From: Halalkalicoccus jeotgali B3
Lineage (GTDB): Archaea; Halobacteriota; Halobacteria; Halobacteriales; Halalkalicoccaceae
Assembly (NCBI RefSeq): GCF_000196895.1
Contig: NC_014300.1
Coordinates: 1-44,576 of the forward strand
DNA length: 44,576 nt
Reading direction: 5' to 3'
Shown here piece by piece: positions 10,264-36,251 of this stretch. The notes under the pieces were generated by a model. It had not been told where the DNA came from. It was given only the letters and a program-made list of their open reading frames with translations, and did not search any database. The translations under genes and the position numbers were made by a program. Numbering within the stretch: the stretch's first letter is position 1; each line of letters starts with the position of its first letter.

Positions 10264-10289
10264 AGTAGTGTAGTGTCCTGTTTTCGTGT

Positions 10290-11783: not shown

Positions 11784-11793
11784 ATAATTGGAG

Positions 11794-13539: not shown

Positions 13540-13644
13540 ATTGACTCTCATCGCAACCACTTTCGAACCATAAGTCTGCACAGGCCTGAGCCTTGAGTAT
13601 CATAAGAACAACCGCATTAAACGAGCATCACGTAGTTACTGGTG

Positions 13645-16275
<2,631 letters not shown>

Positions 16276-17815: not shown

Positions 17816-19216
17816 ATGCCGACAACACTCGTCGATGGAGTTCTCGAATCACTCCGCATCGGCGTTGGGTTCTTGTGGGTCGCTGCGTGGGCAATCATCA
17901 TGGGGCTGGTCATCACCAGCCTCGTCCAAGTGTACGTCTCCAAAGAGCGTATGGCGAAGGTTCTCGGTGAGGGAGACCTCTCCGGTCTCACGAAAGCGAC
18001 GCTGTTCGGTGCCGCGAGTAGTGGCTGTAGTTTCGGCGCTGTCGCCATCGGCAAAGGGCTATTCAAAAAGGGTGCTCACGTTGTGAACTTCCTCGCGTTC
18101 ATGTTCGCTTCGACGAATCTCATCGTCGAGCTGGGTTTGATGATCCTGCTACTGCTCGGCTGGGAGTTCCTCGTCGCCGAACTCCTCGGCGGGATCATCC
18201 TCATCGCCGTCATGGCGCTGCTCGTTCATCTGACGCTCCCTGAAAATCTCTTCGAGGACGTGCGAGCGGAACTCACCCAGCGTGATAGAGAACAGGGTGT
18301 CACCGAAGACCCGACCTGTGGGATGGAAGGCAAAGACGAGTATTCGCTCGTCACCGACGGGGGCCAGACAGTGAAATTCTGTTCAGCGGGCTGCATGGAG
18401 ACCTACGAACAGGAGATGGCCAGCAGCGGTGGCTGGCGCGACGAACTGCTCTCATGGGGCGGCTGGTACAAGATCGGTAACCAGTATCGTAAGGAGTGGT
18501 CGATGATCTGGACCGACGTCATCGCGGGCTTTCTCATCTCCGGGTTCGTCATCGTGTTCATCCCGCAGTGGGTCTGGAACGCGCTATTCTTACAGGGCGA
18601 CGGGCTGCTCGTCAGTGCTGAAAACGCGATCATGGGCGTTGCAATCGCCGTCATCAGCTTCGTCGGCAGCATGGGCAACGTCCCGTTCGCCGTCGCGCTC
18701 TGGGGCGGCGGCGTCAGCTTCGCCGGCGTTATCGCGTTCGTTTACGCCGACCTCATCACGATTCCTGTGCTGAACGTCTATCGGAAGTACTACGGTTGGA
18801 AAGTGATGACCTACATCCTCGGCGTGTTCTTCGTAACGATGGCCTTTTCGGGATTTCTCATGGAAGAGCTGTTCGACGTTCTCGGCATCGTTCCGAACCT
18901 CGCCGGCGGCCAGACCGCAACCGAACAGACGTACTTCGAACTCAACTACACGTTCTATCTCAACCTCATCGCGTTTGCGCTCTCGGGATTTCTCTTCTAC
19001 GTTTATCGGCGGGGTCTCGGTGCTCCGGGCCAGTACCGGGATCCAGTCTGTGGGATGCGGACCGACGAGGACGGTCCAACCGTCACTCACGATGATGAGA
19101 CGTACCACTTCTGTTCGGAGAGTTGCAAGCGTGTATTCACTAACGATCCCGACGGCTACTCCGACGTTCACCCGATTGCCTCTCCGACTGGCGGACAGGC
19201 TCACGACCATGACTAA
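17816..19216 (+). CDS. ArsP/SO_0444-like permease with two YHS/TRASH domains
   Basis: A 466-residue membrane permease. Residues 1-150 and 235-400 form two halves of about four helices each, as in the DUF318/ArsP family. The first half carries ASSGCSFGAVAIGKGLFKKGA, which holds the conserved Cys. Between the halves sits a YHS/TRASH metal domain (DPTCGM, Cys168; FCSAGC, Cys189/193). A second YHS domain lies at the C-terminus (DPVCGM, Cys412; FCSESC near 433-437), followed by a His-rich tail (HDHD). This suggests export of a soft metal or metalloid, with Cys domains handing the ion to the channel. The gene is followed after 65 bases by a Cys-rich protein and a methyltransferase. Duplicated YHS modules in one permease are uncommon. 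The exact substrate is unknown. Confidence 0.85.
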   Translation: MPTTLVDGVLESLRIGVGFLWVAAWAIIMGLVITSLVQVYVSKERMAKVLGEGDLSGLTKATLFGAASSGCSFGAVAIGKGLFKKGAHVVNFLAFMFASTNLIVELGLMILLLLGWEFLVAELLGGIILIAVMALLVHLTLPENLFEDVRAELTQRDREQGVTEDPTCGMEGKDEYSLVTDGGQTVKFCSAGCMETYEQEMASSGGWRDELLSWGGWYKIGNQYRKEWSMIWTDVIAGFLISGFVIVFIPQWVWNALFLQGDGLLVSAENAIMGVAIAVISFVGSMGNVPFAVALWGGGVSFAGVIAFVYADLITIPVLNVYRKYYGWKVMTYILGVFFVTMAFSGFLMEELFDVLGIVPNLAGGQTATEQTYFELNYTFYLNLIAFALSGFLFYVYRRGLGAPGQYRDPVCGMRTDEDGPTVTHDDETYHFCSESCKRVFTNDPDGYSDVHPIASPTGGQAHDHD

Positions 19217-20675: not shown

Positions 20676-20828
20676 CTATACTAAGCGCTGGCCGACTTGA
20701 TCAGTCAATGATTGACGGCTAAGATCGCACTTCTCGCACACAAAGTATCCGTGCTCGTTCCGAACGAACTCGTGATCAGTCGGGTCACACGCCCGCTTCT
20801 TGAATGGTGGATCCTTGCCGAGTGGCAT
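20676..20828 (-). CDS. 50-residue CxxC microprotein downstream of the VirD4-like gene
   Basis: A short gene. It reads MPLGKDPPFKKRACDPTDHEF, then a middle with YFVCEKC, and ends in GQRLV before a TAG. Cys14, His19 and the CEKC pair (Cys32/35) could form a zinc ribbon. The start ATG lies at 20828, 53 bases after the stop of the VirD4-like gene on the same strand, so it may be the last gene of the transfer operon. The flanking 20540-20675 holds nothing else. The function is unknown. Confidence 0.55.
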   Translation of the reverse strand: MPLGKDPPFKKRACDPTDHEFVRNEHGYFVCEKCDLSRQSLTDQVGQRLV

Positions 20829-20880
20829 ACACGCTACACTCGCCGGGAGTTGTTATAGATCAGGATTTGTCACGAGGTGT

Positions 20881-23800
20881 CTATCGGAACTTCGCGAGGG
20901 GACTCTCCTCGGTATCGTCGCTTTCGGTGTCGTCGTCCCCATCGAGCAGCTGGCCGATCGGGGTTCGGTCGCCACTCGGCTCTAGGACTTCGAGCCCGTC
21001 GTCGGTCACGGCGATCACGTCGACCATGTCCCGGTCGATCCGTCCGGGGAGCGCCGGGCGCTTGACCGTCGACCACTCCGAGAAGTCGGATATATCCTTC
21101 TCCGTCGCGGGGTAATCCGTCGGATCGGCGAATACGTCCTCCGGATCAGTGAACGTGGCGAGCGTTTCGTCGTCCGAATCGCGGAGTTCGACGGTCTCGG
21201 TGTCCTCGTGATAGAGCCATACACTCTGGCCGCCAGCGGGTCGATAGACCCGGACGTCGTTGGGTCCGGCCCTCACGTCCCCGTTCGCATTGTAGAGACG
21301 AGAGACCCCCTCATTTCCGCTGTAAGCACGCATACACTCAGGGTACTCGTCGAGACGCCGGGCGATGCTCTCGGCGGTGTCGGGTCGGGCGAGCATGAGA
21401 CAGCGCCGACCGTTCTCGACTGACCGAGCGATGTGCTCCAGCGTCACTCCCGGCGCAGTGTCACCCGTCGAATGTTCGGCTTCGACGTCAACGGTCCCCG
21501 CGCCGCTCAGTCTATCGAGTAGTCCGTTCTCCTCGCGGAATTTCTCGACGAGGGAGGCCACTTCCGCGGGTTCAAGGGTGGGGTTTTCGCGTGCAAGACG
21601 TAGCTTCGTGCTCTCTGGTTCAGCGAGGGCGTCGGGGTCGTCGTCGCCACCTTGCCGAACGACGTGCAACGGGAGGCCGACCGCAAGGAGATTGTCATAG
21701 GCGTCTCGCATGAGCTCGGCGTGAGCCATGCCGCCCGTGTTCTCATTCACTTTGTTGTCCTCGTCGACGGGTGAGAGGAACCGGGCCTTGCCCTCGTCAG
21801 TACACCGAACGTGCAACTCGCCGCGGTGGTCGCGCTCGAGGATGCTTTCGGGGAGTGGTCCAAGTAGTCCCTCGATCTTACTGGGTGTATCGGGGACGTC
21901 GTCGCTCACTCGTTCGACGTACCGGGCGATCCGATCCGAGGCGTCGGAGAGGCTTACGAACCCGTCCTCGTCGCCGTCGTAGTAGCCCGCGTCATAGACG
22001 GCCTGGAGCGCCATGGCCCGAACGAGGGCGGGCGTGTCGTCGTCCTCGTCGCTCTCGTTGGTGCCGTCGTCCTCGCCGGGATAGAGTAACGTATCGGCCT
22101 TGATCTCCGCGCTCGTGCGGGCTTTCTGGCCGTGTTTCTCTTGGGAGTGGGCGATCAGTTCGTCCGTTTCGTCCTCGCCCCTGAGTGGGAGCGCGTCAAG
22201 CGCGGGAGCGAGGGCTTTCACCTTATAGGAGTCCGTTTTCTCGTCGCGGTCGTCGTGGGTCCGCATGTAGAGGTGATACTTCGACAGTTCGGTGAGGTGC
22301 TCGGGTTCAATGTCCGGCGAGTGTTGGGGCGCGATCTCGCGAGCGTCGGCCGGGTCGCCGGGGTCGAACGTCAAGAAGGTCTTACAGTTGCCTTGAATCG
22401 CCCGCTGAACGCCGTCGGGGAGGCCGATCTTGTCGTCGTTGCCCGTCTCGAGGTTCTGGCAGGCCAGCGTCAGCGAGAGCCCGAACGCGCGGGCCTCCCG
22501 GAGGATATTGTGAATCTCACTTTCCTTGCTCACGATCTTGTCGAACTCGTCGATGACGGTGTAGAACTTCGGCGGGTCGGGCTCGTCGTCGGCGTTCGAC
22601 TGCTCGCGAATGGCGATCCAGATTCGCCGAATGAGGGCCGTCGCGATGAGGCGCTTTGCCGTATCACTCGACGAGCGATTACGGACCACGATGATCTTAC
22701 CCTCCCGTACGGCCTCCTCGATCGAGATCGTACTACTCGGGTGGGAGACGATTCGGCGGGTGGTCCCCGACTCGACCCACTCTTTCAGGCGTCGGATGAG
22801 GGGCTCAACACTATCCTGTTCGATGTCCGCGAGCACGCGCTGGGCGTAGTCCTCGATCCATTCGATCCGCTCAGAGGCCATCATGTCGGCGTACTCTTGG
22901 CGGCCGTCCTCGTCGAGCAGCGCGTAGTACATGTCGAGCATGGTCACGTCCCGCTCAGTCTCGATTTGCCACTGAGCAAGGCCACGGACCACCGACCGGG
23001 TAATCCCGCTCATGCGGGCGTGCCAGCCGCCGCCTGAGCCCGACTGTGCGAGCAAGGCCTCCAGGTCGTCGGCCAGCGCTTCGATCGCCGCCTCGGTGCT
23101 CGCCGTTCCGAGCTCGGGATTCTTCAGCGGAACCTCGAGGAAGTTGAAGCCGATCTCGTACTCCGAATCCGCGCCGATGTCCAAATAGAGAAGGTCGTCT
23201 TCGCGACCTTCGGGGATGAGCGAAACGACGTCCTCCGCGTCGTCTCCTTTCGGATCGAAGAACAGCCCGCCGTGGCCGCGTTGCATGATCTGGCGGAAGT
23301 AGTTGATGAGCAAGGTGGTCTTACCCATCCCGGTCGATCCCCCCACGAACTGATGGACGTTCAGGATCTCCGGGTCGACACCCGCCTCAACGCCGTTCTT
23401 GGTCCCCCACCCGTACCATATCGGGTTCGCGGGCTCGTCGTCGGAGAGGAGCGCCCGCTGTTTGTCCTCTAGGGGCGAGGTCGCCCGATCGAGACCGACC
23501 GAATCGAAGTCGAACCGCGGGGTTCGTGGTGGAACGCCCTTCCCCGCCGTCGTCATGCTATAGTCGGCCTGTTGGGTGTTGAGGTCGGTCGGGACGTGAC
23601 ACGCGCCCGTCGCGGTGTCGATCGGCATGAGGATGTTACGGTCGGCGAACTCGCGACCGGCGGCCGATCGAAGGAACTCATCGAGACCCTCGCCGGTCAT
23701 TGGGACCGTTCGGAACCCCTGCCGATTCTTCGAATTGTAGAACTTCCGGTACATTCCGGCCGTGTTCATGACGCGCTGCTCGGCAACCTCTGGATCGTCG

Positions 23801-24624
23801 GAAACGGCGATGATTCGAAAGTTGAGGTGGTAGGCCTTGCTCCCGTACTGGGATTTCACGACCTGATAGACGTCGTCGTTATCGAGATCGACCGTCGTCG
23901 TGTGCTGGATATCATCATCGCCACCTTCCGTGAACGTACTCGCCATCTGCTCTAGGATCGCACCCTTTCTGAGGCTCGCTTTCTGCTCACCCATCTCCTT
24001 GAGCGTGTCCGGGATCCCCGAGAACCAGTTCTTGCTATCCTTCGGGTGACTCGATATCGCTGGGCGGAGGACCATCTGTACCAAAACGTCGGTATCGGCG
24101 AGTTCGGGCGACCCCACCATTTCCGACGTAATCGAGTCGTACGGGTCCTGTGCGAACTCGTTTTGCTCGATTTTGTAGTGCTTGATCGGATAGTAGAAGT
24201 TCTCCTCCATGAGCTCGAGGCGAGCGCCGGCGATGTACTTCCCCGCTGGCGCGTCCATGAAGTGCGGGGTTAACTCCTGAATGTCCGAATCGGGATAGTA
24301 CGTCTGTAGTTGCCGGAGCATCTGGCGTTTCGCGTCCTCAGTACCGGGTGCGAATCGGAATTGAAGGATCTCATCGCTGTCTGTGTAGAGGAGCTCGAAG
24401 GCGTGGGTCGGCGACGTGTTCTTGGTCCGGAAGCGACCGGACCACTCGGCATCATGCAGCGATTTGAGGAGCCGCTCGCCACGCTCGAGGCCGTCGTCGC
24501 CACGGTAGGGGCGAATCCCCAGGATCGGCAGGTCGCCCCGTGCACGGTCGTATAGGTCCGTACTGAGCGCCTCGCTGATCTGGCGGGCTTCGACCTCATC
24601 CGAGCCACCGAACAGTGAGAACAT
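20881..24624 (-). CDS. VirD4/TraG-like type IV coupling ATPase, large
   Basis: A 1247-residue ATPase. The first roughly 400 residues are an N-terminal region without clear membrane helices. The AAA/HerA-FtsK-type core follows, with Walker A GGSTGMGKTTL (Lys near 435), a conserved FFDPKGDDAED segment, and Walker B FYTVIDEFDKI (Asp near 692). Then come FGLSLTLACQNLETG and a GNCKTFLTFDPGDP sensor region. These match the VirD4/TraG/TraD coupling-protein family, which brings DNA to a secretion channel. A C-terminal extension of about 350 residues (beyond 900) is acidic and not recognised. The ATG shares one base with the preceding stop (TAATG). A longer frame extends upstream inside the VirB4 gene but looks like antisense noise. 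ATP hydrolysis should drive DNA movement in or out of the cell. Confidence 0.85.
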   Translation of the reverse strand: MFSLFGGSDEVEARQISEALSTDLYDRARGDLPILGIRPYRGDDGLERGERLLKSLHDAEWSGRFRTKNTSPTHAFELLYTDSDEILQFRFAPGTEDAKRQMLRQLQTYYPDSDIQELTPHFMDAPAGKYIAGARLELMEENFYYPIKHYKIEQNEFAQDPYDSITSEMVGSPELADTDVLVQMVLRPAISSHPKDSKNWFSGIPDTLKEMGEQKASLRKGAILEQMASTFTEGGDDDIQHTTTVDLDNDDVYQVVKSQYGSKAYHLNFRIIAVSDDPEVAEQRVMNTAGMYRKFYNSKNRQGFRTVPMTGEGLDEFLRSAAGREFADRNILMPIDTATGACHVPTDLNTQQADYSMTTAGKGVPPRTPRFDFDSVGLDRATSPLEDKQRALLSDDEPANPIWYGWGTKNGVEAGVDPEILNVHQFVGGSTGMGKTTLLINYFRQIMQRGHGGLFFDPKGDDAEDVVSLIPEGREDDLLYLDIGADSEYEIGFNFLEVPLKNPELGTASTEAAIEALADDLEALLAQSGSGGGWHARMSGITRSVVRGLAQWQIETERDVTMLDMYYALLDEDGRQEYADMMASERIEWIEDYAQRVLADIEQDSVEPLIRRLKEWVESGTTRRIVSHPSSTISIEEAVREGKIIVVRNRSSSDTAKRLIATALIRRIWIAIREQSNADDEPDPPKFYTVIDEFDKIVSKESEIHNILREARAFGLSLTLACQNLETGNDDKIGLPDGVQRAIQGNCKTFLTFDPGDPADAREIAPQHSPDIEPEHLTELSKYHLYMRTHDDRDEKTDSYKVKALAPALDALPLRGEDETDELIAHSQEKHGQKARTSAEIKADTLLYPGEDDGTNESDEDDDTPALVRAMALQAVYDAGYYDGDEDGFVSLSDASDRIARYVERVSDDVPDTPSKIEGLLGPLPESILERDHRGELHVRCTDEGKARFLSPVDEDNKVNENTGGMAHAELMRDAYDNLLAVGLPLHVVRQGGDDDPDALAEPESTKLRLARENPTLEPAEVASLVEKFREENGLLDRLSGAGTVDVEAEHSTGDTAPGVTLEHIARSVENGRRCLMLARPDTAESIARRLDEYPECMRAYSGNEGVSRLYNANGDVRAGPNDVRVYRPAGGQSVWLYHEDTETVELRDSDDETLATFTDPEDVFADPTDYPATEKDISDFSEWSTVKRPALPGRIDRDMVDVIAVTDDGLEVLEPSGDRTPIGQLLDGDDDTESDDTEESPLAKFR

Positions 24625-27600
24625 TAGGTCCACCCCCAGTTGCACGGGTCGCGTCCCTGATCGTCCGTGTAGTTCGCGAGGTACATCCTCGTATCGGGGT
24701 GGTCGGTCGGGTCGTGCTGATAGACAGCGAACTGTCGCGGGTTGATGTCGTCCGACATTTCGATTCTGAGCGGGTACTGATCCTCGTCGACGACGAACAG
24801 CGCTTGACTGTAGCCGTCGCTTTTCTTGCCCATATCGGCGTTCCTGATGTACTGTTGGGACCGAGGAGTGAGGTCGAGGATGTCCGCCCACGTCGGGTTC
24901 ATTTCCTTGGTGTGGTGGTAGAGCTGCATGGCCTGATTATTGTAGATCACTTCGGCGCTCTCGGAGAGTGAGACTTCCGTGCTTCCGTCGTCTTTCGTTG
25001 AGGTTTCGAACAGGTCGCCGATCTCCTGAGTTGCGAGCATGATCCACTCGCCCCAGTGGCGAGCGTGGCGGTGGAGTCGCTTGAAAAAGCCCGCACTCCG
25101 GGGGTTTGACAACATATAGTGGAACTCGTCGACGCACATCGCGGTGTGTCCCTCGAAGGCCTTTTGCTGCTCGTGGAGGTCGGACAGACGCATCATCATC
25201 TCGAGGCCGCCAGCGCGTTGATCCTGCTCTTGGTCTTGGTGATCGAGGTAGATCACGTCGTGATCCATCAGATCTAGGTCCGACCGCTCGCAAAAGTGCG
25301 AGAATCGGCCATCAGGCTCGAACGCCTCGATGTCGTGGGTAATGATATCTCGGGCGACGCCTTGGCGCTTCTCTAAGGTCCCCTCCTCGTTCGCGAGGCG
25401 CTCCCGAACGAACTCGTCGGGGTCGAGCACGATATCCTCGAGGACCTCGATAACGTCGGGGATCGTTGCACTCGGGTTCCGGTAGCTCTCGGGATCGCCG
25501 CGTTCGATCCCCTGCCGGCGCTGGGCCTCCTTGGCCGCGAGCGTCCATGTGTCGCGCTTCTCGCCGATATTCGCGAGGTCCATCATATCGTAGTAGGCGT
25601 ACAGGAACGTGTCGAACCGATTGAGGAACCCGTGCCATGGCGACCCTTTTTTGATATTACGGTACTTCTCAGGCGGGACGTACGGAACGTTCAGCGGGTT
25701 CACGGCCGCGTCCTTTCCGACGCGGATCCACTCGCCACCATAGATATCACACAGGCTTTTGAGGTCCTGAAGCGGCGTCGAGAGGATCATCTTAAACGGG
25801 ATATCGCGCTCGTCGTGGTGTTGCTTGAACGAGTTGACGAGGTGCTGGAGCGAGGTCGTCTTGCCGCTCCCGATAGTCCCGTAAATTCCCATTGAGTGGC
25901 CGTTCTCGAGATCGCCGACGTCGACGCGGGTCGGCTCCCGGAGGTAGTCATGCAGGCCGATCATGGTCCCGTCGGCGTCCTCGCGATTCTTGTACTGATA
26001 GGCCCACTGTCGGGCGAGGGCGTCGGCCCGAAGTGTGACGTTCTCGCCGAGCTCGTTGTTACAGACGGGAATCGACGACTGCCACCCCTCGTCGTGGCGA
26101 TCGTCCATCCGAGCGGTGTCGAGCCCGCACTCGCGTTTCAGGATCATCTCGATATCCTCAATCGCGTCGGTGAGTCGGTGGTCCGAATGGTTCACTTCGC
26201 CGGTCTGTTCGTCCCAGTGGCGCGTTGAGGCCTCGATCGTGACCGAGAGGCTCGCAGAGAACACTGCGAAGTTGGTATCATCGATCGACTCGGCGAACGA
26301 ACTGGCCTCGTCGTACTTCCGCTGCACGTAGTCCTCGAAGAACGTCCCGAATTGCCCCTCAAGGCGGTCTTCCATCGAGTGTTCTTGGTTCTTGGCGGTG
26401 CGCTTCGGGTTCGCCTGCCGTTCGAAGTGGGTCGCGATCTTGACGTCCACTCCCGGCCGGTGGTACTGGTACAGTGGCTCGAGAAACGCCGTCGGGGGGA
26501 CGTCCGGCCAACCCGTGACCTGGAGCGTCGCCGAAAGAGTATCGCCGTCGAGTGTGATCGACCCGTCCGTCTCGGGGTCGAACGTTTCAGGCATGACGAG
26601 GGTCCGGTATTGGTGCATCAGGTCGTCCTCGTCGGTCACGTCGCTGATCCCTTCGCAAAAGTCGACGTCATTCCCTGGGTGTGAGACGTTGTGATTCGGG
26701 TCGCCGGCGTCCTCCGAACCGGGAACGGGCGACTGTCGGACCATATCAGTGAAATGCTTGATCTGCGTAACGTCGTCCGGTCGGTAGGCGTCGGCGATCA
26801 CTTCCGTGAACTCGGCCGATGTGAGCCGCCGAGCCGAGATCCCCTGTAGCTTCTCTAAGCCATTCTGGAGCGATTTGAGGCGGCGATTCAATTCGCGGAC
26901 CATGATCCCCGTGAGGTCGCTATTCTCCCGGAGACGTCGAACGCGGCGCTCCTTGACCGGCTTACCGATGAAATCGAGGTCGGCGAGGCCGCCGTTGATC
27001 CCCGAGAGGGTTCGGGCGGCGTCGAGTTCGTTCGCTTCGAGGACGATGTAGTGCTCGCGCTTCGCGGTCGTGTTCTCGTAGAAGCTCTCAATCGTGGCCC
27101 GTTCCTTCGCGATGTCCGCTTGGACCTCTAGGGGCCACGTATCGGGCTCGTCTCCAGCCTCCATCTCTAGGACGGCCTGTATGGCCTCACGTTCGGTCTT
27201 ATCCACCGACGGGTCTATCTCCCGTGTTGGGGGCTGATCGACTGTTCCAGAGCGAATGGTGGCCCGCAAGCGCCGTTCATGCCCCTTGGCACTCTGTTGG
27301 TGGTCAGTGTAGTCGACCGAGCGGGGGATATCGACCATCATCCCACGTTGATGTGGAGGGAGTGTCGAGAGGACGCCCGCGAAGGCGTTAATGGGGAGCA
27401 GAAGGTCATCTTTCTCGTACATCGCCATGCTCGCCGGGTCGACCTTGATCGCTCCGACGACGCCATGACCACCGTCGAGCTCGACAGCGTGCTCGTGTTT
27501 GAAGGCACGCTGTACGGCCGCGAAGTCCTGAATGATCGTGCCGCGCTCGGGTTCGAACCACTCCGTGATCGGCGAGTGGCTCAAAATACCCTCGAGTGGC

Positions 27601-27716
27601 GAGCCATTCACGAGGCGGTCAATCCGCCCCGGCTTGATGGCCGCCTGAAGGTCGGCGTCGATCGACGGCGTTTCGGTATCAGTCTGTTCGGTCGGTGTAT
27701 CGTCTGTTTTACTCAT
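24624..27716 (-). CDS. VirB4-like conjugation ATPase
   Basis: A 1030-residue ATPase of the VirB4/TraC/TrbE type. The N-terminal 600 residues are the family's non-ATPase part. Walker A IYGTIGSGKTTS lies near 612-622, with Walker B TAMCVDEFHYM (Asp near 862) and the following arginine/Gln region (HWGEWIMLATQEIGDL). VirB4 proteins power assembly of type IV secretion channels and pili. The gene is the fourth of the minus-strand operon: VirB2-like, VirB6-like and VirB3-like precede it and VirD4 follows. ATG 27716 is preceded by a 20-base gap after the VirB3-like stop. The length fits large haloarchaeal members. It lacks a signal peptide, so it should act on the cytosolic face. Confidence 0.88.
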   Translation of the reverse strand: MSKTDDTPTEQTDTETPSIDADLQAAIKPGRIDRLVNGSPLEGILSHSPITEWFEPERGTIIQDFAAVQRAFKHEHAVELDGGHGVVGAIKVDPASMAMYEKDDLLLPINAFAGVLSTLPPHQRGMMVDIPRSVDYTDHQQSAKGHERRLRATIRSGTVDQPPTREIDPSVDKTEREAIQAVLEMEAGDEPDTWPLEVQADIAKERATIESFYENTTAKREHYIVLEANELDAARTLSGINGGLADLDFIGKPVKERRVRRLRENSDLTGIMVRELNRRLKSLQNGLEKLQGISARRLTSAEFTEVIADAYRPDDVTQIKHFTDMVRQSPVPGSEDAGDPNHNVSHPGNDVDFCEGISDVTDEDDLMHQYRTLVMPETFDPETDGSITLDGDTLSATLQVTGWPDVPPTAFLEPLYQYHRPGVDVKIATHFERQANPKRTAKNQEHSMEDRLEGQFGTFFEDYVQRKYDEASSFAESIDDTNFAVFSASLSVTIEASTRHWDEQTGEVNHSDHRLTDAIEDIEMILKRECGLDTARMDDRHDEGWQSSIPVCNNELGENVTLRADALARQWAYQYKNREDADGTMIGLHDYLREPTRVDVGDLENGHSMGIYGTIGSGKTTSLQHLVNSFKQHHDERDIPFKMILSTPLQDLKSLCDIYGGEWIRVGKDAAVNPLNVPYVPPEKYRNIKKGSPWHGFLNRFDTFLYAYYDMMDLANIGEKRDTWTLAAKEAQRRQGIERGDPESYRNPSATIPDVIEVLEDIVLDPDEFVRERLANEEGTLEKRQGVARDIITHDIEAFEPDGRFSHFCERSDLDLMDHDVIYLDHQDQEQDQRAGGLEMMMRLSDLHEQQKAFEGHTAMCVDEFHYMLSNPRSAGFFKRLHRHARHWGEWIMLATQEIGDLFETSTKDDGSTEVSLSESAEVIYNNQAMQLYHHTKEMNPTWADILDLTPRSQQYIRNADMGKKSDGYSQALFVVDEDQYPLRIEMSDDINPRQFAVYQHDPTDHPDTRMYLANYTDDQGRDPCNWGWT

Positions 27717-27736
27717 ATGAGTCGTGTCAGTGTCGG

Positions 27737-28105
27737 TTATCGGTCTCTGCGGCTCGGAAGCGTCGGATCCGAGCGAATCGTTTCACGGCCGTGCCACTCG
27801 GCGTAGCGCGAGCGGAGATACTGGAGGGTCGACTCGTGACTCGGCGTAACGATCGAAGCGAGCAGCGCCGTCACAAGAACGAGGGCGTCGAATACGAGTG
27901 TCGCGACGAGGACCACCAGCGCGACCTGCCACGGGGCGATATTGAACAGGACCACCGACGGAACCAACAGGAGAACACAGACGACGACGAGAACCATTGC
28001 CCACACGGCATTGAACCCCAGCCAATTCGGCATGAGGCTCACATTCTCCATCGTCAGCTGCTCGCCGGTATCCCGCGGGTCGTAGGAGCCACTATCACTT
28101 GCCAT
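27737..28105 (-). CDS. VirB3/PrgI-like two-helix membrane protein
   Basis: A 122-residue protein with two membrane helices (near 33-54 and 59-86), a soluble acidic head, and a basic C-terminus. Small two-helix proteins directly before VirB4 are characteristic of VirB3/PrgI/TrbD, which anchor VirB4 to the membrane. ATG 28105 is used; an upstream ATG at 28123 is possible. The start overlaps the 3' end of the VirB6-like gene by 11 bases. The identification rests mostly on gene order and topology, so treat it as inferred. Confidence 0.68.
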   Translation of the reverse strand: MASDSGSYDPRDTGEQLTMENVSLMPNWLGFNAVWAMVLVVVCVLLLVPSVVLFNIAPWQVALVVLVATLVFDALVLVTALLASIVTPSHESTLQYLRSRYAEWHGRETIRSDPTLPSRRDR

Positions 28106-29621
28106 CCGATCCCTCCGAGCCATCCGTACCGAGGCCGCTGTCGAACGCGCCTTTCTCTTCCATTTTCAGATTGAAGTATCGCTTGCGCTGGGTCGTCGTG
28201 AGACCACCCGCACGGTCGTTCATCTCCTCAAATCGCCGCATTCGCTCTGAACGGGTTGGGGAGACGCCACCGTCAGCCGACGTCTTGCTACTCGAGCCGA
28301 CGCCCGGGTCGTCACTTCGCCATCGGTTGAACCGCTCTTTACCGCTGTATGCAACACCGGCCGCACTCCCCGACGCCGCCGAACCGAGGAACTGAGCGCG
28401 GTTCTTGACGTCCCACCATTTGCCCTGAGCAGCGGCCCCCTTGCGCTTGACGTAGCCCTTGCCCTGCTCTTTGACCCGCTCCGTGTCCGGGGCTTTCTCG
28501 CGAACCTTCGCCGCGACCGCGCTACTGCCGGCGGCCGCCCCGGCCCCAGCGCCGACCGCCGCGATCAGGCGGCCTTTCGAGAGCCACATGAAGATCAGCA
28601 TCAACGGCGGGGTCGCAAGTGCCGACGCGATTAGCCCCAGAGAGACGAAAGCCGCGACGATCCCATCGAACGACAACCCCCAGTCGAGCTGCGAGGCGGC
28701 GAACAGTTGCACGGCGACGGCGGCCTTAGAAATGAGCAGTGCGAGGTGGGTCACATGCAGGTAGCCGCTAAACTTCCCGAATGTCGAGGTCGGAGAGTAG
28801 AGCCATGCCGCCGTGAACGGCATAGAAATCATCGGAAAGAACGCGATGTAGATCCAGATTATCGCGTACAGTAGCCCGGCCCATTTCAGAATGTCCCAGC
28901 CCATTTCGTATAGCCCCATTCCAACGAACGCCGTCGCCAGCGAGAAGTCGAGCAGGCCCATGTTCTCGATCATCTGAGCGGGCGACGCGGCGACGTGCTC
29001 GGTGAACCCGGCGAACAGCTCATGTACGATTGAGAACCCGACGAGGTGAAACACGATCCCGCCGAGAATCGCCACGAACGCGCGTACGCCGCGGCTCAGT
29101 GTCCCGTGCGTACTCCACGGGAACGCCCGAAGGCTGGCGAATGGTGCGGCTCCAAACGACGCGAAGGTGATGATCCCGAACGCGACCGTCGTAATCGGGA
29201 CGGCGATCCCAACATACAGGACCGGGAACAGGATGTCATACGGCGAACTCGTTGGTGTGTGAATCCCGCCGGGGTCGGTCAAGCCGATATCAATCGTCGG
29301 GATGTCAAGGATGAACGTGAATATCGGCCCGAGAGCCATGTTCGCAGCCGCCTGAGCCCCTCCCGTGGCGATGTTAGCCCCAGTGTTCAGAACGCCCTGG
29401 GCGATCCCGATCGGGCCGCCCGTCCCCGTACTGTTCCCGCTCGTCGTGTTGTTCCCACCGACGCCAGGAGCGGTCGGAGCGTCCGAGGGGGTGGCGTTCG
29501 TCGAGTTCGTCGCGTTATCAATGCCAGGAGCGCCCGCTTGCGCAAGCACTCCGACAGCGCCGACGCTACTCGCGAGCAGCGCCACGGTCACAGTCAGCAC
29601 CAAAATCCGACGGCGATTCAT
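28095..29621 (-). CDS. VirB6/TrbL-like polytopic membrane protein
   Basis: A 508-residue protein. It has an N-terminal signal sequence (MNRRRILVLTVTVALLASSVGAV) and an Asn/Thr-rich extracellular segment to about residue 75. About eight hydrophobic segments span residues 90-365. A Ser/Gly/Ala-rich basic cytosolic tail follows from about 370 (RVKEQGKGYVKRKG ... RSERMRRF). This topology and its place before VirB3-like and VirB4 match VirB6/TrbL, the inner-membrane channel protein of T4SS. ATG 29621 is preceded by TTG at 29624. The 11-base gap to the preceding stop supports one transcript. Confidence 0.72.
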   Translation of the reverse strand: MNRRRILVLTVTVALLASSVGAVGVLAQAGAPGIDNATNSTNATPSDAPTAPGVGGNNTTSGNSTGTGGPIGIAQGVLNTGANIATGGAQAAANMALGPIFTFILDIPTIDIGLTDPGGIHTPTSSPYDILFPVLYVGIAVPITTVAFGIITFASFGAAPFASLRAFPWSTHGTLSRGVRAFVAILGGIVFHLVGFSIVHELFAGFTEHVAASPAQMIENMGLLDFSLATAFVGMGLYEMGWDILKWAGLLYAIIWIYIAFFPMISMPFTAAWLYSPTSTFGKFSGYLHVTHLALLISKAAVAVQLFAASQLDWGLSFDGIVAAFVSLGLIASALATPPLMLIFMWLSKGRLIAAVGAGAGAAAGSSAVAAKVREKAPDTERVKEQGKGYVKRKGAAAQGKWWDVKNRAQFLGSAASGSAAGVAYSGKERFNRWRSDDPGVGSSSKTSADGGVSPTRSERMRRFEEMNDRAGGLTTTQRKRYFNLKMEEKGAFDSGLGTDGSEGSDGK

Positions 29622-29632
29622 CAATTACGCCC

Positions 29633-30076
29633 TCAGAAGAACACGACGCACTCAGTCGGGGGCGTGACGGGCATGGTGCCGAAGGCGATCCCAGCGGCGA
29701 CAAGGACGAGTGCGATTAGACCGAATGCGGCCAGCCCGCCGACGAGCATCCCGTTGCCCGCACTCGAGACGCGCCCGGAGACGAAGCCGAAGGCCTTCGC
29801 AGCGCCGCCGGAGAAGATCGCCGTCCCGATCGCGAGCGTCGAGAAGCCGATTACCATCCACCCGAGGCCGACAAAGAAGTTGTACGGGGCCGACTGGCAC
29901 AACTGGACGCCCGTCTCTTGACCACTCTGTTGGGCGAACGCCGGTGAGACGAGCAGTAGCGCGCCCCACAGGACCGGGATAGACTGAATCAGCAACGGTC
30001 TTGCACGAGCAGCGGCTCGCGATTTGAGTCTCTTGGCGGCTGAGTCCGCCACTTCTTTTACTTGTAGTACTTGCAT
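29633..30076 (-). CDS. VirB2/TrbC-like small membrane protein (possible pilin)
   Basis: A 147-residue protein. It has a basic head, a long hydrophobic signal (residues 28-48) ending in the signal-peptidase-like AFAQQ (A46-F-A48), and two further membrane helices (near 72-93 and 112-135). Long leader plus two helices is the VirB2/TrbC pilin layout. It is the first gene of the T4SS-like operon, 11 bases before the VirB6-like start. A TATA-like cttctttatcctt on the minus strand at about 30098-30106, 26 bases before the ATG, points to a leaderless promoter for the operon. The upstream longer frame is not protein-like. Pilin function is inference. Confidence 0.68.
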   Translation of the reverse strand: MQVLQVKEVADSAAKRLKSRAAARARPLLIQSIPVLWGALLLVSPAFAQQSGQETGVQLCQSAPYNFFVGLGWMVIGFSTLAIGTAIFSGGAAKAFGFVSGRVSSAGNGMLVGGLAAFGLIALVLVAAGIAFGTMPVTPPTECVVFF

Positions 30077-30208: not shown

Positions 30209-30454
30209 ATGAAATCGTACACGACTCCCGACATCCCCGAAGCTATGTGGGTCCACTGGCGACGGCTCACCCCACACGAGCAGTCGCTACCGCCCCGATC
30301 GAGGCGGCTCTATGCGGCCGACGTAGCTTGCGCACAAAAACACGGACAAGGGATAATCGAAACCGCCATCGAGGAGGGGTTGATCGATGAGCAAGACATT
30401 CAAGACGCCTTCGACATCGAGTACCCAGACGACTACAACTCAGACAGTGAGTAA
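30209..30454 (+). CDS. Small acidic protein of unknown function
   Basis: An 81-residue soluble acidic protein (WVHWRRLTPHEQSLPPRSRRLYAADV, then EEGLIDEQDIQDAFDIEYPDD). It has no membrane segment or known motif. The ATG 30209 is the first gene transcribed divergently from the transfer operon. It overlaps the following membrane-protein gene by 68 bases in another frame. No family recognised. Confidence 0.6.
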   Translation: MKSYTTPDIPEAMWVHWRRLTPHEQSLPPRSRRLYAADVACAQKHGQGIIETAIEEGLIDEQDIQDAFDIEYPDDYNSDSE

Positions 30455-30671
30455 CCCCATCGATACGGCCGAGCGCAAAGGCGCGAATATCCTCGCCTAC
30501 GCCGTCGCTATGGTCGGGGTCTTCGCCGTACTCAACGGCGGGTTTCTCCCCGGCGGGCTCTTTCTCGCCGGGGCGTTCGTCCTCATGCCACGGTTCCCGC
30601 TCTTTGGCGAGCTCCCGCAGTTCGTCGGCTGGATCTTGATCGCTATCGCGTTCACGACACTCCCCTCGTAA
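30387..30671 (+). CDS. Small two-helix membrane protein
   Basis: A 94-residue protein with a Ser/Thr-rich head and two hydrophobic helices (near 35-58 and 60-92) joined by a short loop. It overlaps the preceding gene and ends four bases before the beta-helix lipoprotein start, so the three are an operon. The pairing with an exported lipoprotein suggests an accessory or immunity-type membrane partner. No family recognised. Confidence 0.6.
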   Translation: MSKTFKTPSTSSTQTTTTQTVSNPIDTAERKGANILAYAVAMVGVFAVLNGGFLPGGLFLAGAFVLMPRFPLFGELPQFVGWILIAIAFTTLPS

Positions 30672-30675
30672 CGCG

Positions 30676-31998
30676 ATGGCCACCGAAATCACCACCCCAA
30701 CAGACGCGAGTCCGTCACTCTCACTCTCGAGGCGGGCGTTCCTCGCCAGCGCTACCGTCGGGATCACGGGCGGGCTCGCCGGCTGTACGGACGACGCCGG
30801 ATCAAGTGGACGTGGAGGGATCTCGTCCTCAAAGCGCGCGGCCGGGGGGGTCGGCGCGGGGTTTGCCTACCAAACCCCCGCCATTACACGAAAACAGGCG
30901 ACACATATCGCACGCACACCCGATCAATTCGACGCCGCTCTCGACGCTGCTACGCCCGACAACCTCGTTATCGTTTGGATCCCCGCCGACGCTGCTATCG
31001 ACTATACGGGCCGCTCCCGTCGCGTCAGTAACGCTGTAATCGCGTCCTCGAGATCGACAAGTCACGCGGGCGGGCTCCTGTACAGCAACGATATGGGCGG
31101 TACGTCGTCGGCCTACCGTGGTGGCGAGGTTGACGGTGTCCTGAAGCTCGGCGAGAACTCCCGCATGACCGGCGTTCGATACCGCGGCCCGACAAGTGCA
31201 ACGTGGAACCACCCGCTGTATCCGGGCTATATCCCCTTCGGGAGCGGGAACGCGGCTCGACGAGAGGAGTACCGTTCGCAGCGCCATTCTCGAGGCCTCA
31301 GTATCACCGCCGGAAGTGTCCGCGTCGACAACTGCGAAATCTTCGGCTGGAGCACTCAAGGGATCTCGGTCAACTGTCCGCGTAGCTACGGTCGGGAGCG
31401 GGAACAGTCGTATCCCGGGATCCAGAACTGCTCAATTCATGACTGTGGCCTCAGCGGCTACGGCTACGGTGTTGAGGTCAACGTCGGCCATCCGATCATT
31501 CAGCGCTGTTTCTTCAACGGGTGTCGCCACATGATCGCCGGCGAGGGATATCCTGATTGTTCGTACTCCGTTGAGGGGAGTTTCTTCGGCCCCGCTGGGA
31601 GCCTCTTTCCCCTCGATATGCACAACCTCGCCGAGAATATCGGCGGGACTACCAACCCCGACGACTACCGCTATCGGTACCGCTCAGGGGGACTCATTCG
31701 CGTGCTCAACTGTACGGTTGCGTTCTCTCATGTGATCAATATCGCCGCCTCGAGTTCGCTCAGTGCTGGCGGGAATCCCTTTGCCGGGAATCAGACCTCT
31801 GCTATCGGTATCGGCGGCCTTCCCGCTCAGGGCGTTGTCGTCCAGGGCTGCCGGTTCGTCCATGATGGCCCCGGGTCCGCGTTTACTGTCGGACTGCTCC
31901 CGCGCCACGCCGAGACTGATCAGTATGGGCTCGCTCGCTGGGAAACCAAGAACAATCAATTCGGCCTTCGGGCGGACTTCCCCGTCGGCCAACCTTAG
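30676..31998 (+). CDS. Tat lipoprotein with right-handed beta-helix fold
   Basis: A 440-residue exported protein. It has a twin-arginine signal (SRRAFLASATVGITGG), a lipobox LAGC at 34-37 with Cys37, and a Gly/Ser linker to about 65. The remainder consists of repeated short strands with many Asn, Cys and Gly (GLSITAGSVRVDNCEIFG, IQNCSIHDCGLSGYG, IIQRCFFNGCRH), the pectate-lyase-like parallel beta-helix pattern. Such domains often bind or cut polysaccharide or form surface tips. It could be an adhesin or cell-envelope enzyme for mating, because it is divergent from the T4SS-like operon. Catalytic residues cannot be assigned. Confidence 0.8.
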   Translation: MATEITTPTDASPSLSLSRRAFLASATVGITGGLAGCTDDAGSSGRGGISSSKRAAGGVGAGFAYQTPAITRKQATHIARTPDQFDAALDAATPDNLVIVWIPADAAIDYTGRSRRVSNAVIASSRSTSHAGGLLYSNDMGGTSSAYRGGEVDGVLKLGENSRMTGVRYRGPTSATWNHPLYPGYIPFGSGNAARREEYRSQRHSRGLSITAGSVRVDNCEIFGWSTQGISVNCPRSYGREREQSYPGIQNCSIHDCGLSGYGYGVEVNVGHPIIQRCFFNGCRHMIAGEGYPDCSYSVEGSFFGPAGSLFPLDMHNLAENIGGTTNPDDYRYRYRSGGLIRVLNCTVAFSHVINIAASSSLSAGGNPFAGNQTSAIGIGGLPAQGVVVQGCRFVHDGPGSAFTVGLLPRHAETDQYGLARWETKNNQFGLRADFPVGQP

Positions 31999-32573
31999 CT
32001 TCGCGTTTGGACGTTCTTCGCGATCTCGTAATCCGTCGCCCCGCTGAGCTCGCTCCCCCTCGCGCTGATCGTAAACTCCCATGAGTCGCCCGGCTGTAAT
32101 CCGGTGGTCCCTCCCAGTGCTGGCCGTCCGAGCTGCTCGTCTCCCTCCAAGAACTGAACCTCGAGGTCTATCGTCACTGGTTCGTCCCCCTCGTTCGTCG
32201 CCGTCCCCGTCACTGTCGCCATGTTAGACTCTATGACAAGCTCAGTGTCAGACAGTGTAACATCCTCCGCCGTCGGCGTTGTATCCGGGGCGCTCTCGTT
32301 GATCGCACTCTCATTTGTCTCCGGTCCCTCTGGTTCCGGTTCCGGGTCTGCCGCCGCTGGTTGACTTTCGTTCTCGACGTCCACCCTACTCGCCTCGGGT
32401 GCCGTTCCGTTCTCGTCGATACTCCCGCCCGTCTCGTTTCCGTCGCTCTCAGCATTGGACTGGGCGCCCTTCTCGTCGCCCTCGGTATCTCGAGTGAATA
32501 GCCACGTCGTCACTCCCGTTACGGCCATGCCTACTGCCGTCGCTGCTCCCGCGATAATCCCTCTCCGTTTCAT
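31995..32573 (-). CDS. Exported FxLYD-like protein
   Basis: A 192-residue protein with a signal-like start (MKRRGIIAGAATAVGMAVTGVTTWLF), a long acidic Asn/Pro/Glu linker (about 30-110), and a C-terminal beta-sandwich (DTELVIESNMATVTGTATNEGD ... WEFTISARGSEL) that resembles the FxLYD domain. It is probably membrane-anchored, facing outside. Its stop overlaps the convergent beta-helix gene by a few bases. It may be a surface partner of that protein. Confidence 0.7.
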   Translation of the reverse strand: MKRRGIIAGAATAVGMAVTGVTTWLFTRDTEGDEKGAQSNAESDGNETGGSIDENGTAPEASRVDVENESQPAAADPEPEPEGPETNESAINESAPDTTPTAEDVTLSDTELVIESNMATVTGTATNEGDEPVTIDLEVQFLEGDEQLGRPALGGTTGLQPGDSWEFTISARGSELSGATDYEIAKNVQTRS

Positions 32574-32763: not shown

Positions 32764-33213
32764 ATGGTAGATCTCGATGAACTGGCCGTCGAACTGAGTA
32801 GAAAACAAGAACGTATACTGTTGCTAATGTTTCGTCACGGCGAACTCAAAAGTCGCGAAGTAGGCGAGCTGACTCAGTTCTCGCGGGGGTCGAAGAACCA
32901 CCAACTCGGTGTCCTGTTAGACCGCGAGTTAATCGAGATTATCGGGTGGGACGAGGACGCCGGGCGCGACGGCGAGCGGATACTCGGGTTAACGGACACC
33001 GGCCGCGATCTCGTTGAGCAGCATCTCACTGAGAAAGGCGAGCGGCCCGACGAGTACCGGCTCCGCGTCGAGCGCCTAGAGGACGACGTCGACGAACTTG
33101 AAACTGAAAACGAGCAACTCAAGGACGAACTCGAATCGCTCCGGCAGGACCACGAGGAACTCTACGAAAAACATCGGGGGCTCGTTGACACGCTCGAAAA
33201 CGAACTATTCTGA
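32764..33213 (+). CDS. Winged-helix DNA-binding protein with C-terminal coiled coil
   Basis: A 149-residue protein. The first 85 residues form a winged helix (LSRKQERILLLMFRHGELKSREVGELT, then SKNHQLGVLLDRELIEII). Residues 98-148 are a regular coiled coil (RVERLEDDVDELETENEQLKDELESL). It should dimerise and regulate neighbouring genes. It is convergent with the 33443 gene, and 230 bases separate them with no further gene; that gap contains a 7-bp inverted repeat pair (cccctac at 33381 and gtagggg at 33430). Confidence 0.75.
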   Translation: MVDLDELAVELSRKQERILLLMFRHGELKSREVGELTQFSRGSKNHQLGVLLDRELIEIIGWDEDAGRDGERILGLTDTGRDLVEQHLTEKGERPDEYRLRVERLEDDVDELETENEQLKDELESLRQDHEELYEKHRGLVDTLENELF

Positions 33214-33442: not shown

Positions 33443-34603
33443 TTAGATATCCTCGCCTCCGTCCGTCGCGACCTCCGCGTTCATGAGTGCGTCCATCTCG
33501 GCGGCTGCGTCCGACGTGATCGTCTCCCGTTCATCGTTGTCGTCTTGACCCTCCTGGTCGTGATCGTCCTGCTGGGCGTGGTCGGAGCCAGTTGAATCAA
33601 TCTCACTCGACTGGGAGGAGGACTGAGATCGTGTCTGTCGAGAGGACCCGCCCGATTTCCCGAGGATCTTCTTCTTGCTCTTTGTGTCGCGGAACCCGAA
33701 CCCGTCCTGATTGGCGATCTCGGTAGCGAGTTCGTCGGCGTGATCCCACGACCAAGCGCCGTCGAGAACCGAGGATTGGATCTCGGAGACGCTCATAGCC
33801 CTTGCGTTACGGTGAAGCGCGATCTTGATACCTTGGATCCGCTCGTCCCGATCGAGGACAGCAGCGGGTTTCCGGTCGATCGGTGGCGAGTGCGGATCAA
33901 TGTCCAGACCGACCCTCGCGCCGACCTCCTCCAAGCGCGATTCGTGAATGTACAGATCGGCGTCGTCGGGATGATACACTAACTCGAGGTCATCGAGAAC
34001 GTCCGGGAGGTACTTGTCAATCGTCGGTTGCGACGATCCGGCGACGTCCTCGATCGCCTCGATAAGTGTCTCCTCGGAAATGTTCCTGTCCAATCCAACG
34101 GTGCCCCTGATCCGATCGCAGATGACCTCGTGCTTCTCTGCCGGGGTCGTGGGGTTGCGTTCCTGCTCCTGCTCCTGTTCGTAATCGTCCTGCTGCTCAA
34201 GCTTCTCCGCGATCCTGCCGAGTCGGCCACCCTCCCGATACTCGCGAATCGCGTACGCGAACATGACACCGGGGTTCTCGCCGTTGGATCGGGCGAACGA
34301 GGAAAACGCCTCCTTCGTTGGTGGGTGGACCCCCACTCGGACCCGGCACTTCTCCTGTTCGGAGAGCGGGGTCGTAGTTGCGTTTGTTTTTTCTATCTCT
34401 GATGGACCCCCAGTCTGGAGGGTGTCGGAAATCTCCTTTTCGACCTCTGCGAACTCGTCGATATCCATGTACTGCCGCATCGCTTGACTGGCGATAATTC
34501 CGCCGTAGAGGGCGATATCGCCCCATTTCTCTTGCATGAGGTTGCAGTACCGTTCCCACTCCTTAGCAGGAACGAGCCAGTCAAGATCGGTAAGATACGT
34601 CAT
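33443..34603 (-). CDS. Ribbon-helix-helix-like DNA-binding protein, partition-type
   Basis: A 386-residue protein. Residues about 86-130 have the look of a ribbon-helix-helix (CRVRVGVHPPTKEAFSSFA, then GVMFAYAIREYREGG). Later a winged-helix-like stretch (TLIEAIEDVAGSSQPTIDKYLPDVL) is followed by an acidic, Ser/Gln/Asp-rich tail. No known catalytic motif was seen. Three copies of the 9-mer ctaccacta lie just upstream of the ATG, which suggests self-regulation or a partition site. Plasmid partition or copy control is a fair guess; the function is not known. TTG 34606 is an alternative start. Confidence 0.65.
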   Translation of the reverse strand: MTYLTDLDWLVPAKEWERYCNLMQEKWGDIALYGGIIASQAMRQYMDIDEFAEVEKEISDTLQTGGPSEIEKTNATTTPLSEQEKCRVRVGVHPPTKEAFSSFARSNGENPGVMFAYAIREYREGGRLGRIAEKLEQQDDYEQEQEQERNPTTPAEKHEVICDRIRGTVGLDRNISEETLIEAIEDVAGSSQPTIDKYLPDVLDDLELVYHPDDADLYIHESRLEEVGARVGLDIDPHSPPIDRKPAAVLDRDERIQGIKIALHRNARAMSVSEIQSSVLDGAWSWDHADELATEIANQDGFGFRDTKSKKKILGKSGGSSRQTRSQSSSQSSEIDSTGSDHAQQDDHDQEGQDDNDERETITSDAAAEMDALMNAEVATDGGEDI

Positions 34604-34629
34604 CAAGAAGTCACCTCCACAACAGGACT

Positions 34630-35693: not shown

Positions 35694-36251
35694 ATGAACA
35701 CGAACACAACGCCAACGAAAGAAGGTATCGACAAGCGAACGATCCGCGCCGCAACAGAGAGCATGAGCATCGACCGCCATGCCGGTGAGGCCGGCGAGGT
35801 CGACGTCTACAGCGAGAGCGGCTCAGTGTACCGCGTGTGCCTGATCACCGAAACGTGCGAGTGTCCCAGCGACACGTATCAAGACGGTGCGTGCAAGCAC
35901 CAGCGCCGCGTCGAGATGGCACTCGGCCAGCACGACGTGCCGAATCTCGACGAGGAGACGGATGTCGAGCTGATGATCGCCGCTCGCGAGCAGTATCGCG
36001 GGCTAGGCGATTCGACGGTCGAGCACCGTCCGGCTGACGATGCTGTAGTTGTGACCGACGGCGGTGTTGCGACCGAGAGCCCCATGCAGGACACTGACGT
36101 CAACGAGCCGACAATCACCGGGCCGTGGACGGAACCGGCCGAGCAGGGTGGTGCGGAGTACTGGCGGTGCGAAGACTGTGGGCGCGAATCGCTCCGACGT
36201 GGGGACGTCGAGCGCTCGGAGTTCCACGCTGAGGAGTGCGTGCTCCGATGA
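35694..36251 (+). CDS. SWIM zinc-finger protein
   Basis: A 185-residue protein. It holds a SWIM motif, CECPSDTYQDGACKH (CxC, then CxH), near residues 52-70, preceded by a short strand region. The C-terminal end has a second Cys/His cluster (WRCEDCGRESL ... EFHAEEC). SWIM domains bind DNA or proteins. ATG 35694 comes directly after the switch-like leader described separately. The partner is unknown. The 36252-36488 gap holds no gene; it contains a catctc/gagatg inverted repeat near 36354. Confidence 0.78.
   Translation: MNTNTTPTKEGIDKRTIRAATESMSIDRHAGEAGEVDVYSESGSVYRVCLITETCECPSDTYQDGACKHQRRVEMALGQHDVPNLDEETDVELMIAAREQYRGLGDSTVEHRPADDAVVVTDGGVATESPMQDTDVNEPTITGPWTEPAEQGGAEYWRCEDCGRESLRRGDVERSEFHAEECVLR

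Follow-up and report, generated by a model that had tools for sequence, protein, structure and literature searches.

We analysed the whole 44,576-nt contig C4 of Halalkalicoccus jeotgali B3 (NC_014300.1), one of seven contigs in the genome and hereafter called the window, and found on its minus strand, from 30076 down to 20881, five genes encoding a VirB2-type pilin, VirB6, VirB3/PrgI, VirB4 and VirD4. By sequence comparison, all five products are homologous to components of type IV secretion systems (T4SS); this assignment is sound, and the kind of system is already known. We consider it probable that the operon provides mating-pair formation and coupling for a conjugation-type T4SS of haloarchaea, with plasmid DNA as its substrate and with extra VirD4 domains in place of a relaxase. 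Related haloarchaeal loci carry either this coupling module or a relaxase-bearing one, and the two are mutually exclusive in distribution.

The five-gene operon and the identity of its products

Genes were called with a home-made composition score, and transmembrane (TM) helices and Tat-type signals were assigned with a simple hydropathy script and inspection by eye. The operon and the two extra domains of VirD4 are arranged as follows:

29633..30076, minus strand: VirB2-type pilin, 147 aa (profile A3 against PDB, Pfam, topology)
28095..29624, minus strand: VirB6-type polytopic membrane protein, 509 aa (homologues, Pfam TrbL_3, gene position)
27737..28105, minus strand: VirB3/PrgI-type protein, 122 aa, two TM helices (hhalign chain, fusion to VirB4)
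24624..27716, minus strand: VirB4 ATPase, 1030 aa (NCBIfam CD1110, PDB 4ag5, Walker A/B)
20881..24624, minus strand: VirD4-type coupling ATPase, 1247 aa, no predicted TM helix (Pfam TrwB_AAD_bind, Walker A/B, hydropathy)
23455..24624, minus strand: N-terminal domain of VirD4, ~390 aa (profile A6; encoded separately in 15 of the 26 related loci)
21292..21789, minus strand: C-terminal domain of VirD4 with invariant H, Q, D and ExE (alignment A12)

A first-pass annotation, made from the letters alone, had placed a type IV secretion or conjugation-like operon at 20676-30076 and assigned three of its products largely from topology. All five open reading frames (ORFs) were recovered on the strand and in the order it gave, and profiles, gene fusion, Pfam and PDB matches now support the roles beyond topology; the operon itself occupies 20881-30076, and the interval 20676-20880 holds no part of it. 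Adjacent genes overlap or are separated by at most 20 nt, with an 11-nt overlap between the 5' end of VirB3 and the 3' end of VirB6 and with the VirD4 ATG overlapping the VirB4 stop (TAATG), a layout consistent with the single transcript that had been proposed. The ORF list gives a TTG start for VirB6 at 29624, and the ATG at 29621 is the likelier start. A VirD4 start at 24891, also listed, lies inside VirB4 and is unlikely.

The two proteins read earlier as clear ATPases both contain Walker A and Walker B motifs, namely GTIGSGKT at residue 613 and AMCVDEF at 859 in VirB4, and GSTGMGKT at 429 and YTVIDEF at 688 in VirD4. Their matches are not confined to HerA/FtsK chromosome proteins, and VirB2, VirB3 and VirB6 partners are present. 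VirB4 matched the VirB4-like NCBIfam model CD1110 at 2e-18, below its equivalog cut-off, and a profile of 20 rows (A1) searched against PDB retrieved the VirB4 structure 4ag5 at 4.4e-21; the window protein thus appears to be a distant member of the T4SS VirB4 family. No VirB4 relatives were found in IMG/VR. VirD4 passed the Pfam TrwB_AAD_bind cut-off of 20.5 with 32.5 bits (5.8e-8), and hydropathy predicted no membrane helix in it.

The pilin begins with a signal-peptide-like N-terminus ending in ..AFA/Q, followed by two further TM helices. On its own the window protein matched no family in the family-library scans. The profile built from 22 loci (A3) gave two matches below 0.01 among 177,635 PDB sequences, 8dfu (4.7e-4) and 8cue (1.1e-3); the profiles of other two-TM families, A10 and A5, gave no pilin match in PDB. 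Of these structures, 8cue is an Agrobacterium-type VirB2, and 8dfu, labelled 'pilin protein', we take to be TedC of the archaeal Ted system. The excerpt of PMC9905601, on which this identification also draws, gives AVA/QA as the signal peptidase site of TedC, and the PAAAQ of the haloarchaeal family resembles it. Pfam TrbC/VirB2 matched 4 of the 22 pilin members (best 1.1e-4), the window protein not among them, and DUF1634 (2.9e-4) and BrkB (0.0011, 3 members) also scored in the same scan; here and for VirB6 and VirB3 the Pfam counts are member totals without the names of the matching members. Met1, the Ala at the presumed cleavage site and two Cys, one (C60) close to the start of the mature protein and the other (C143) close to the C-terminus, are invariant in 22/22 sequences. 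Since VirB2-type pilins are hairpins, a disulfide could join the two ends of one pilin or neighbouring subunits, and we reasonably infer from the alignment that the Cys pair forms such a bond, within or between subunits.

VirB6 was identified by homologues and position: the window protein is linked by phmmer to the VirB6 of 8 other loci, its gene lies between those for the pilin and VirB3, and a Pfam TrbL_3 (TrbL/VirB6) match, at best 3.1e-12, was obtained for 2 of the 22 sequences aligned, with DUF6008 (0.0049, 3 members) also scoring. The window protein had no Pfam match of its own, the VirB6 profile retrieved nothing relevant from PDB, and tblastn against plasmids returned nothing at 1e-5. 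For VirB3, the stand-alone family (A4, 10 loci) aligned with the stretch that other loci carry fused to the VirB4 N-terminus (A5, 13 loci) at an hhalign probability of 99.5%, and A5 aligned with a second set, A11, at 97.4%; Pfam PrgI matched 2 of 13 A5 members (best 0.037) and 4 of 12 A11 members (best 0.0023).

Conservation of the locus and the extra domains of VirD4

Searches with VirB4 gave 26 loci, comprising the window, L041-L060 and L007-L011, with the more distant L014 left out. Several are near-copies (L010/L053/L054; L045/L046; L011/L050/L051/L052; L055/L056; L058/L059/L060), and the set reduces to about 12 independent lineages. The gene order is kept across the 26 loci, as a comparison suggested with the first-pass annotation had been expected to reveal. 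The pilin was found by profile or gene listing in 25 of them, L059 ending at a contig edge, and the VirB6 profile scores in all 26, although most locus sequences scored by these two profiles also helped to build them. VirB3 is a separate gene in 11 loci and is fused to VirB4 in 15. VirD4 lies downstream in 25 loci, undivided in 10 and, in 15, split between one gene for the N-terminal domain and another for the motor; it was not found in L042. A close VirB4 is present in 19 of 392 genomes in a scattered distribution, related VirB4 genes occur on plasmids, and public annotation calls some of them 'conjugal transfer protein'.

Two genes recur at the borders of the operon. A two-helix protein is encoded upstream of the pilin in 18 of 26 loci (E <0.01; four between 1e-4 and 0.002), divergently from the operon in 16 and on its strand in 2 (L058, L060). 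As a candidate second pilin this family (A10) was not recognisable and had no PDB match. In 15 of 26 loci VirD4 is followed at its 3' end by a convergent winged-helix gene; the relative of this gene in the window is located elsewhere.

The coupling protein carries domains on both sides of its motor. The N-terminal domain profile (A6, which with the resulting searches retains an L059 row containing one X and a duplicated stretch) found no PDB match and only scattered, weak Pfam matches. The domain was also considered as a second VirB4 N-terminal domain and rejected (hhalign 0.2%). It occurs in 98 of the 392 genomes of the order (E 1e-10); in a phylum sample of 392 genomes it was matched in 18, of which 17 belong to the order and one, outside it, is weak. 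Alignment A12 of the C-terminal domain covers 22 of 27 VirD4 proteins, including four of the six whose Walker motif escaped a regular-expression search, all six of which score with the profile. Five residues (H, Q, D and ExE) are invariant in 22/22, within the pattern G..H..Y..LG..Q.G..PDg.A....hIEAE.ST..P.QT..NL. Judged from the alignment, its helices and strands follow one another much as in a PD-(D/E)XK core with ExE, such as that of BamHI, and at the level of this motif we propose that the domain is nuclease-like. Each domain was found in 41 loci, 40 of them shared, these counts being inflated by stretches counted twice (L008/L061, L051/L062, L055/L063). L080 has the N-terminal domain only, its contig ending before the VirD4 motor, and L068 the C-terminal domain only.

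The same domains also occur in giant proteins. In L071-L076, ORFs of 2,407-3,375 aa combine the VirD4 N-terminal domain, the motor, the PD...ExE domain and a long C-terminal part; of the two scanned, L071 matched DnaG_N primase weakly (1.1e-4, short of the cut-off), whereas L074 gave no match. Nothing in these stretches scored with the VirB4 profile, and the giant proteins may be replication or mobilisation proteins.

The relaxase-bearing module and competing explanations

Relaxase searches covered the families PF03432 and PF08751 together with a home-made relaxase profile, and none of the three gave a match on the window contig. PF08751 (TrwC) had no match in the genome. PF03432 did detect relaxases on two other contigs of this genome, C5 and C3, which shows that its miss on the window is no failure of the search as such. 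The element on G000:C5 (44,459 b; L013) and that at G000:C3:16000-35500 (L012) are two copies, the one forming its own contig and the other lying inside C3. Both encode, consecutively, an RHH-like protein (206 aa), a relaxase (174 aa, motif HDDKEHGKDVH) and a VirD4-type ATPase (440 aa), beside VirB6 and a fused VirB3-VirB4, with the VirB6 and VirB4 of C5 being profile matches. A gene that is pilin-like by position and topology precedes these T4SS genes and does not score with A3.

Across the 392 genomes of the order, PF03432 matched in 30 genomes at 44 places, and we examined the surroundings of 15 of these matches plus L012/L013, which are copies of each other. In 13 of the 15 regions the relaxase has beside it, or fused to it, a VirD4-type ATPase related to the C5 protein (no VirD4 is shown in L109 or L111); the stretch also includes a VirB4 in 7 regions and shows none in 8. 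In L112:8854-10923 the relaxase and the VirD4-type ATPase form a single protein of 689 aa. Among 15 aligned relaxases, Y26 and H110 are invariant and H121 is 93% conserved.

The two coupling modules do not occur together. The relaxase profile scored in 0 of the 26 window-type loci (539,225 b in total, the window whole), and the N-terminal and C-terminal VirD4 domains were each found in 0 of 17 relaxase loci. Judged by eye among the matches listed, no N-terminal-domain match comes within 20 kb of any of the 44 relaxase matches. At the level of whole genomes, 9 carry both relaxase and N-terminal domain, with about 7.5 expected if the two were independent. On the VirB4 tree the relaxase-bearing VirB4s are nested among the window-type loci, and the distribution of the relaxase label takes at least 2 changes to explain; when labels were shuffled the mean was 8.3, and none of 500 shuffles gave so low a number. 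This tree was made by a quick method and has flagged long branches; 21 of the 26 loci were entered, 9 of 42 rows failed the Walker pattern and were represented by their last 520 residues, and L081 was labelled relaxase-bearing with its relaxase far off on the same 77-kb contig.

Because the modules exclude one another, they are most simply read as equivalents: in handling DNA, the soluble VirD4 would do the work that the RHH protein, the relaxase and the other VirD4 do together. Transfer by the window system would then begin with no relaxase, or with one that has gone unrecognised. Secreted two-helix VirB2 pilins with paired Cys would build a pilus or tube, VirB6 would form the membrane channel, and VirB3/PrgI would anchor a VirB4 ring that drives the assembly of pilin and channel. 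A soluble VirD4 ring lacking a membrane helix would bring the substrate, taken to be plasmid DNA, for export from the plasmid-bearing cell (the presumed direction), and its extra N- and C-terminal domains would recruit or cut DNA in place of a relaxase. We put forward only tentatively, as a possibility that is more doubtful than probable, that haloarchaeal conjugation exists in two interchangeable versions and that the window's version is initiated by VirD4 itself through a DNA-recruiting N-terminal and a nuclease-like C-terminal domain. If true, this would be conjugation started by a coupling protein, and the DNA moved might be double-stranded or a cut linear strand.

Several observations weigh against the conjugation reading and its VirD4 component. 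Structure prediction, suggested as a check with the first-pass annotation, settled nothing: AlphaFold gave poor models both for VirB6, from 8 sequences, and for the VirD4 N-terminal domain, from 4, with mean pLDDT of 46.8 and 44.8, and they lend no fold support. The C-terminal domain profile had a single PDB match, to the unrelated 1mw7 (0.067). For VirB3 the direct Pfam matches are weak, and as the unrelated MamL-1 (0.0055) and OpcA (0.0028) score alike, the case for VirB3 rests on position, fusion and the profile chain. It is possible that the contig encodes a relaxase of another MOB family or of an unrecognised fold. The 'conjugation-like' part of the earlier annotation is still a prediction, as no relaxase was found on the contig.

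T4SSs lacking a relaxase may instead secrete proteins, and the operon could accordingly deliver toxins, beta-helix lipoproteins or other proteins to neighbouring cells, with no relaxase needed for a substrate that is not DNA. The 0 of 26 loci with a relaxase match and the surface lipoprotein gene adjoining the operon agree with this, and the portion of PMC3158045 at hand states that proteobacterial T4SSs without relaxases are thought often to be protein transporters, archaea excepted. We regard this explanation as unlikely, given the related VirB4 genes on plasmids, the TrwB-type motor of the coupling protein, the relaxase-bearing VirB4 relatives nested in the same tree and the VirD4 domains shared with giant proteins, where the weak DnaG-type primase match of L071 (not of L074) hints at DNA. 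The replicon could also be moved in trans, the window supplying the channel and a relaxase of C5 or C3 nicking the DNA, and the same genome does hold RHH, relaxase and another VirD4 beside another T4SS on those contigs. Such helper-dependent conjugation seems quite improbable: C5 has a VirB6, VirB4 and VirD4 of its own and a pilin-like gene (by position and topology), and no PF03432 match was obtained in G057 or G065, two genomes with window-type systems.

That TedC is the best match of the pilin profile, and that the system is minimal, would fit a domesticated, non-conjugative DNA importer of the Ced/Ted kind. The operon, however, lies off the chromosome contig and is scattered among genomes, and it includes VirD4 and VirB3, while the component list for Ced in the available part of PMC11868833 lacks VirD4 and VirB3 is there called absent in archaea; we therefore hold an import role to be very improbable. 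Scarcely credible is a degenerate, inactive remnant, for which the missing relaxase and the transposase and recombinase genes on the contig might speak, because the five ORFs are open, the Walker motifs are intact and the architecture is kept in many genomes. The conjugation-type T4SS remains the reading that we prefer.

Neighbouring genes and known systems

The surroundings of the operon contain the following features:

8185-10362: copper-type P-ATPase (above curated cut-off)
10290-11891: multicopper-oxidase-like protein (below curated cut-off)
13642-16275: copper-type P-ATPase (above curated cut-off)
17816-19216: Cu/Zn-efflux-like permease (below curated cut-off)
30209..30454, plus strand: 81-aa protein between the pilin and two-TM genes (phmmer 7.8e-16, found only in the nearest relative, L041)
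30387..30671, plus strand: small two-TM protein, 94 aa, divergent, beside the pilin gene (profile relatives)
30676..31998, plus strand: Tat-type lipoprotein-like right-handed beta-helix protein, 440 aa (Pfam Beta_helix 9.9e-8)
31995..32573, minus strand: secreted-looking small protein, 192 aa (common to the sister element C5/C3; phmmer 1.8e-72 to L012/L013)
32764..33213, plus strand: winged-helix and coiled-coil protein, 149 aa (relatives convergent with the VirD4 3' end elsewhere)
36489-38843: heavy-metal P-ATPase (above curated cut-off)

The P-ATPases bear out the earlier statement that metal resistance genes lie on both sides of the operon, and the contig is probably a plasmid. The unusual build of the coupling protein, the small two-TM protein and the beta-helix lipoprotein are additions to the first-pass annotation. 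Comparison of the contig ends found no overlap, so circularity and the status of a complete plasmid are not established. No replication protein was recognised among the subset of ORFs scanned. A 387-aa protein at 33443-34606, with a relative in L049, is a candidate for plasmid maintenance or replication, as is a short Cys-containing protein at 35694-36251 whose N-terminus recurs on G029:C15 (L081). At 190-3164 an ISH3-type transposase match (near the C-terminus, below cut-off) adjoins a serine-recombinase-like protein.

The beta-helix lipoprotein is a recurrent neighbour of T4SS loci in the genus, and the C5/C3 element encodes one that is 76% identical to the window's, together with the 192-aa protein. 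A search that scored no more than 4 candidates in each genome found matches in 22 of 392 genomes at 59 or more places. Inspection by eye of the 59 listed places put 11 within 10 kb of an N-terminal-domain match among the matches listed and a further 3 next to a VirB4 belonging to the other class; these two groups include 11 of the 13 best matches. The lipoprotein may serve contact with the recipient surface or its remodelling. On G380:C5 (L080), G380:C6 (L079) and G226:C3 (L078), a protein with a C-terminal TM helix adjoins the lipoprotein by T4SS genes, a possible surface pair.

PMC3158045 reports many archaeal VirB4 homologues, scores one haloarchaeal plasmid, pNG500 of Haloarcula marismortui, as conjugative and suspects unknown relaxases; PMC11389934 calls archaeal relaxases still unknown, and the question of which proteins act as such is treated as open there and in PMC12857230. 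A relaxase and TraD in Haloarcula are mentioned in PMC6333295, with relaxases described as rare in archaeal plasmids, and PMC8563766 gives counts of MOB-family matches for a plasmidome rich in haloarchaea; relaxases in haloarchaea are therefore no novelty in themselves. Among the open-licence matches listed for haloarchaeal T4SS, relaxase or VirB6 and for Haloferax pilin conjugation, the gene cluster is undescribed.

The haloarchaeal plasmid pNG500 (NC_006393.1) encodes a VirB4 relative with 22.5% identity over 75% of the window VirB4. The Fsx1-bearing haloarchaeal integrated elements of PMC9259645 share VirB4 and TraG/VirD4 homologues with the window, and VirB2, VirB3 and VirB6 are not named in the excerpt of that paper. 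With the Ced/Ted import systems, defined in the accessible text of PMC9905601 and PMC11868833 as a VirB2/B4/B6 set without VirD4 and VirB3, the window has the VirB2-like pilin, VirB6 and VirB4 in common, including the profile match to TedC; unlike them, its set lies off the chromosome contig and has VirB3, VirD4 and two invariant pilin Cys. The MPF-FATA systems by which monoderm bacteria conjugate (PrgI/PrgH/PrgJ of pCF10; CD1110 type) share VirB6, PrgI/VirB3, VirB4 and VirD4, and CD1110, below its equivalog cut-off, is the nearest family model to the window VirB4. They differ in that pilins are said to be absent there (excerpt of PMC12102498), whereas the window has a VirB2 pilin, a VirD4 without a TM helix but with extra N- and C-terminal domains, and no recognised relaxase. 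No VirB8 or VirB1 candidate was noticed in the window, with no search aimed at them made.

VirB3 and VirB8 are called absent in archaea in the part of PMC11868833 available, and a VirB3/PrgI-type protein is nonetheless present in haloarchaea. What is new, set against the systems above, is a haloarchaeal T4SS that combines VirB3 and a two-Cys pilin with a coupling protein not seen together with the relaxase module. As relaxases adjoin haloarchaeal T4SS genes in the same genome and a second coupling module, in which no relaxase is recognised, excludes them, the archaeal relaxase question becomes testable within one genus.

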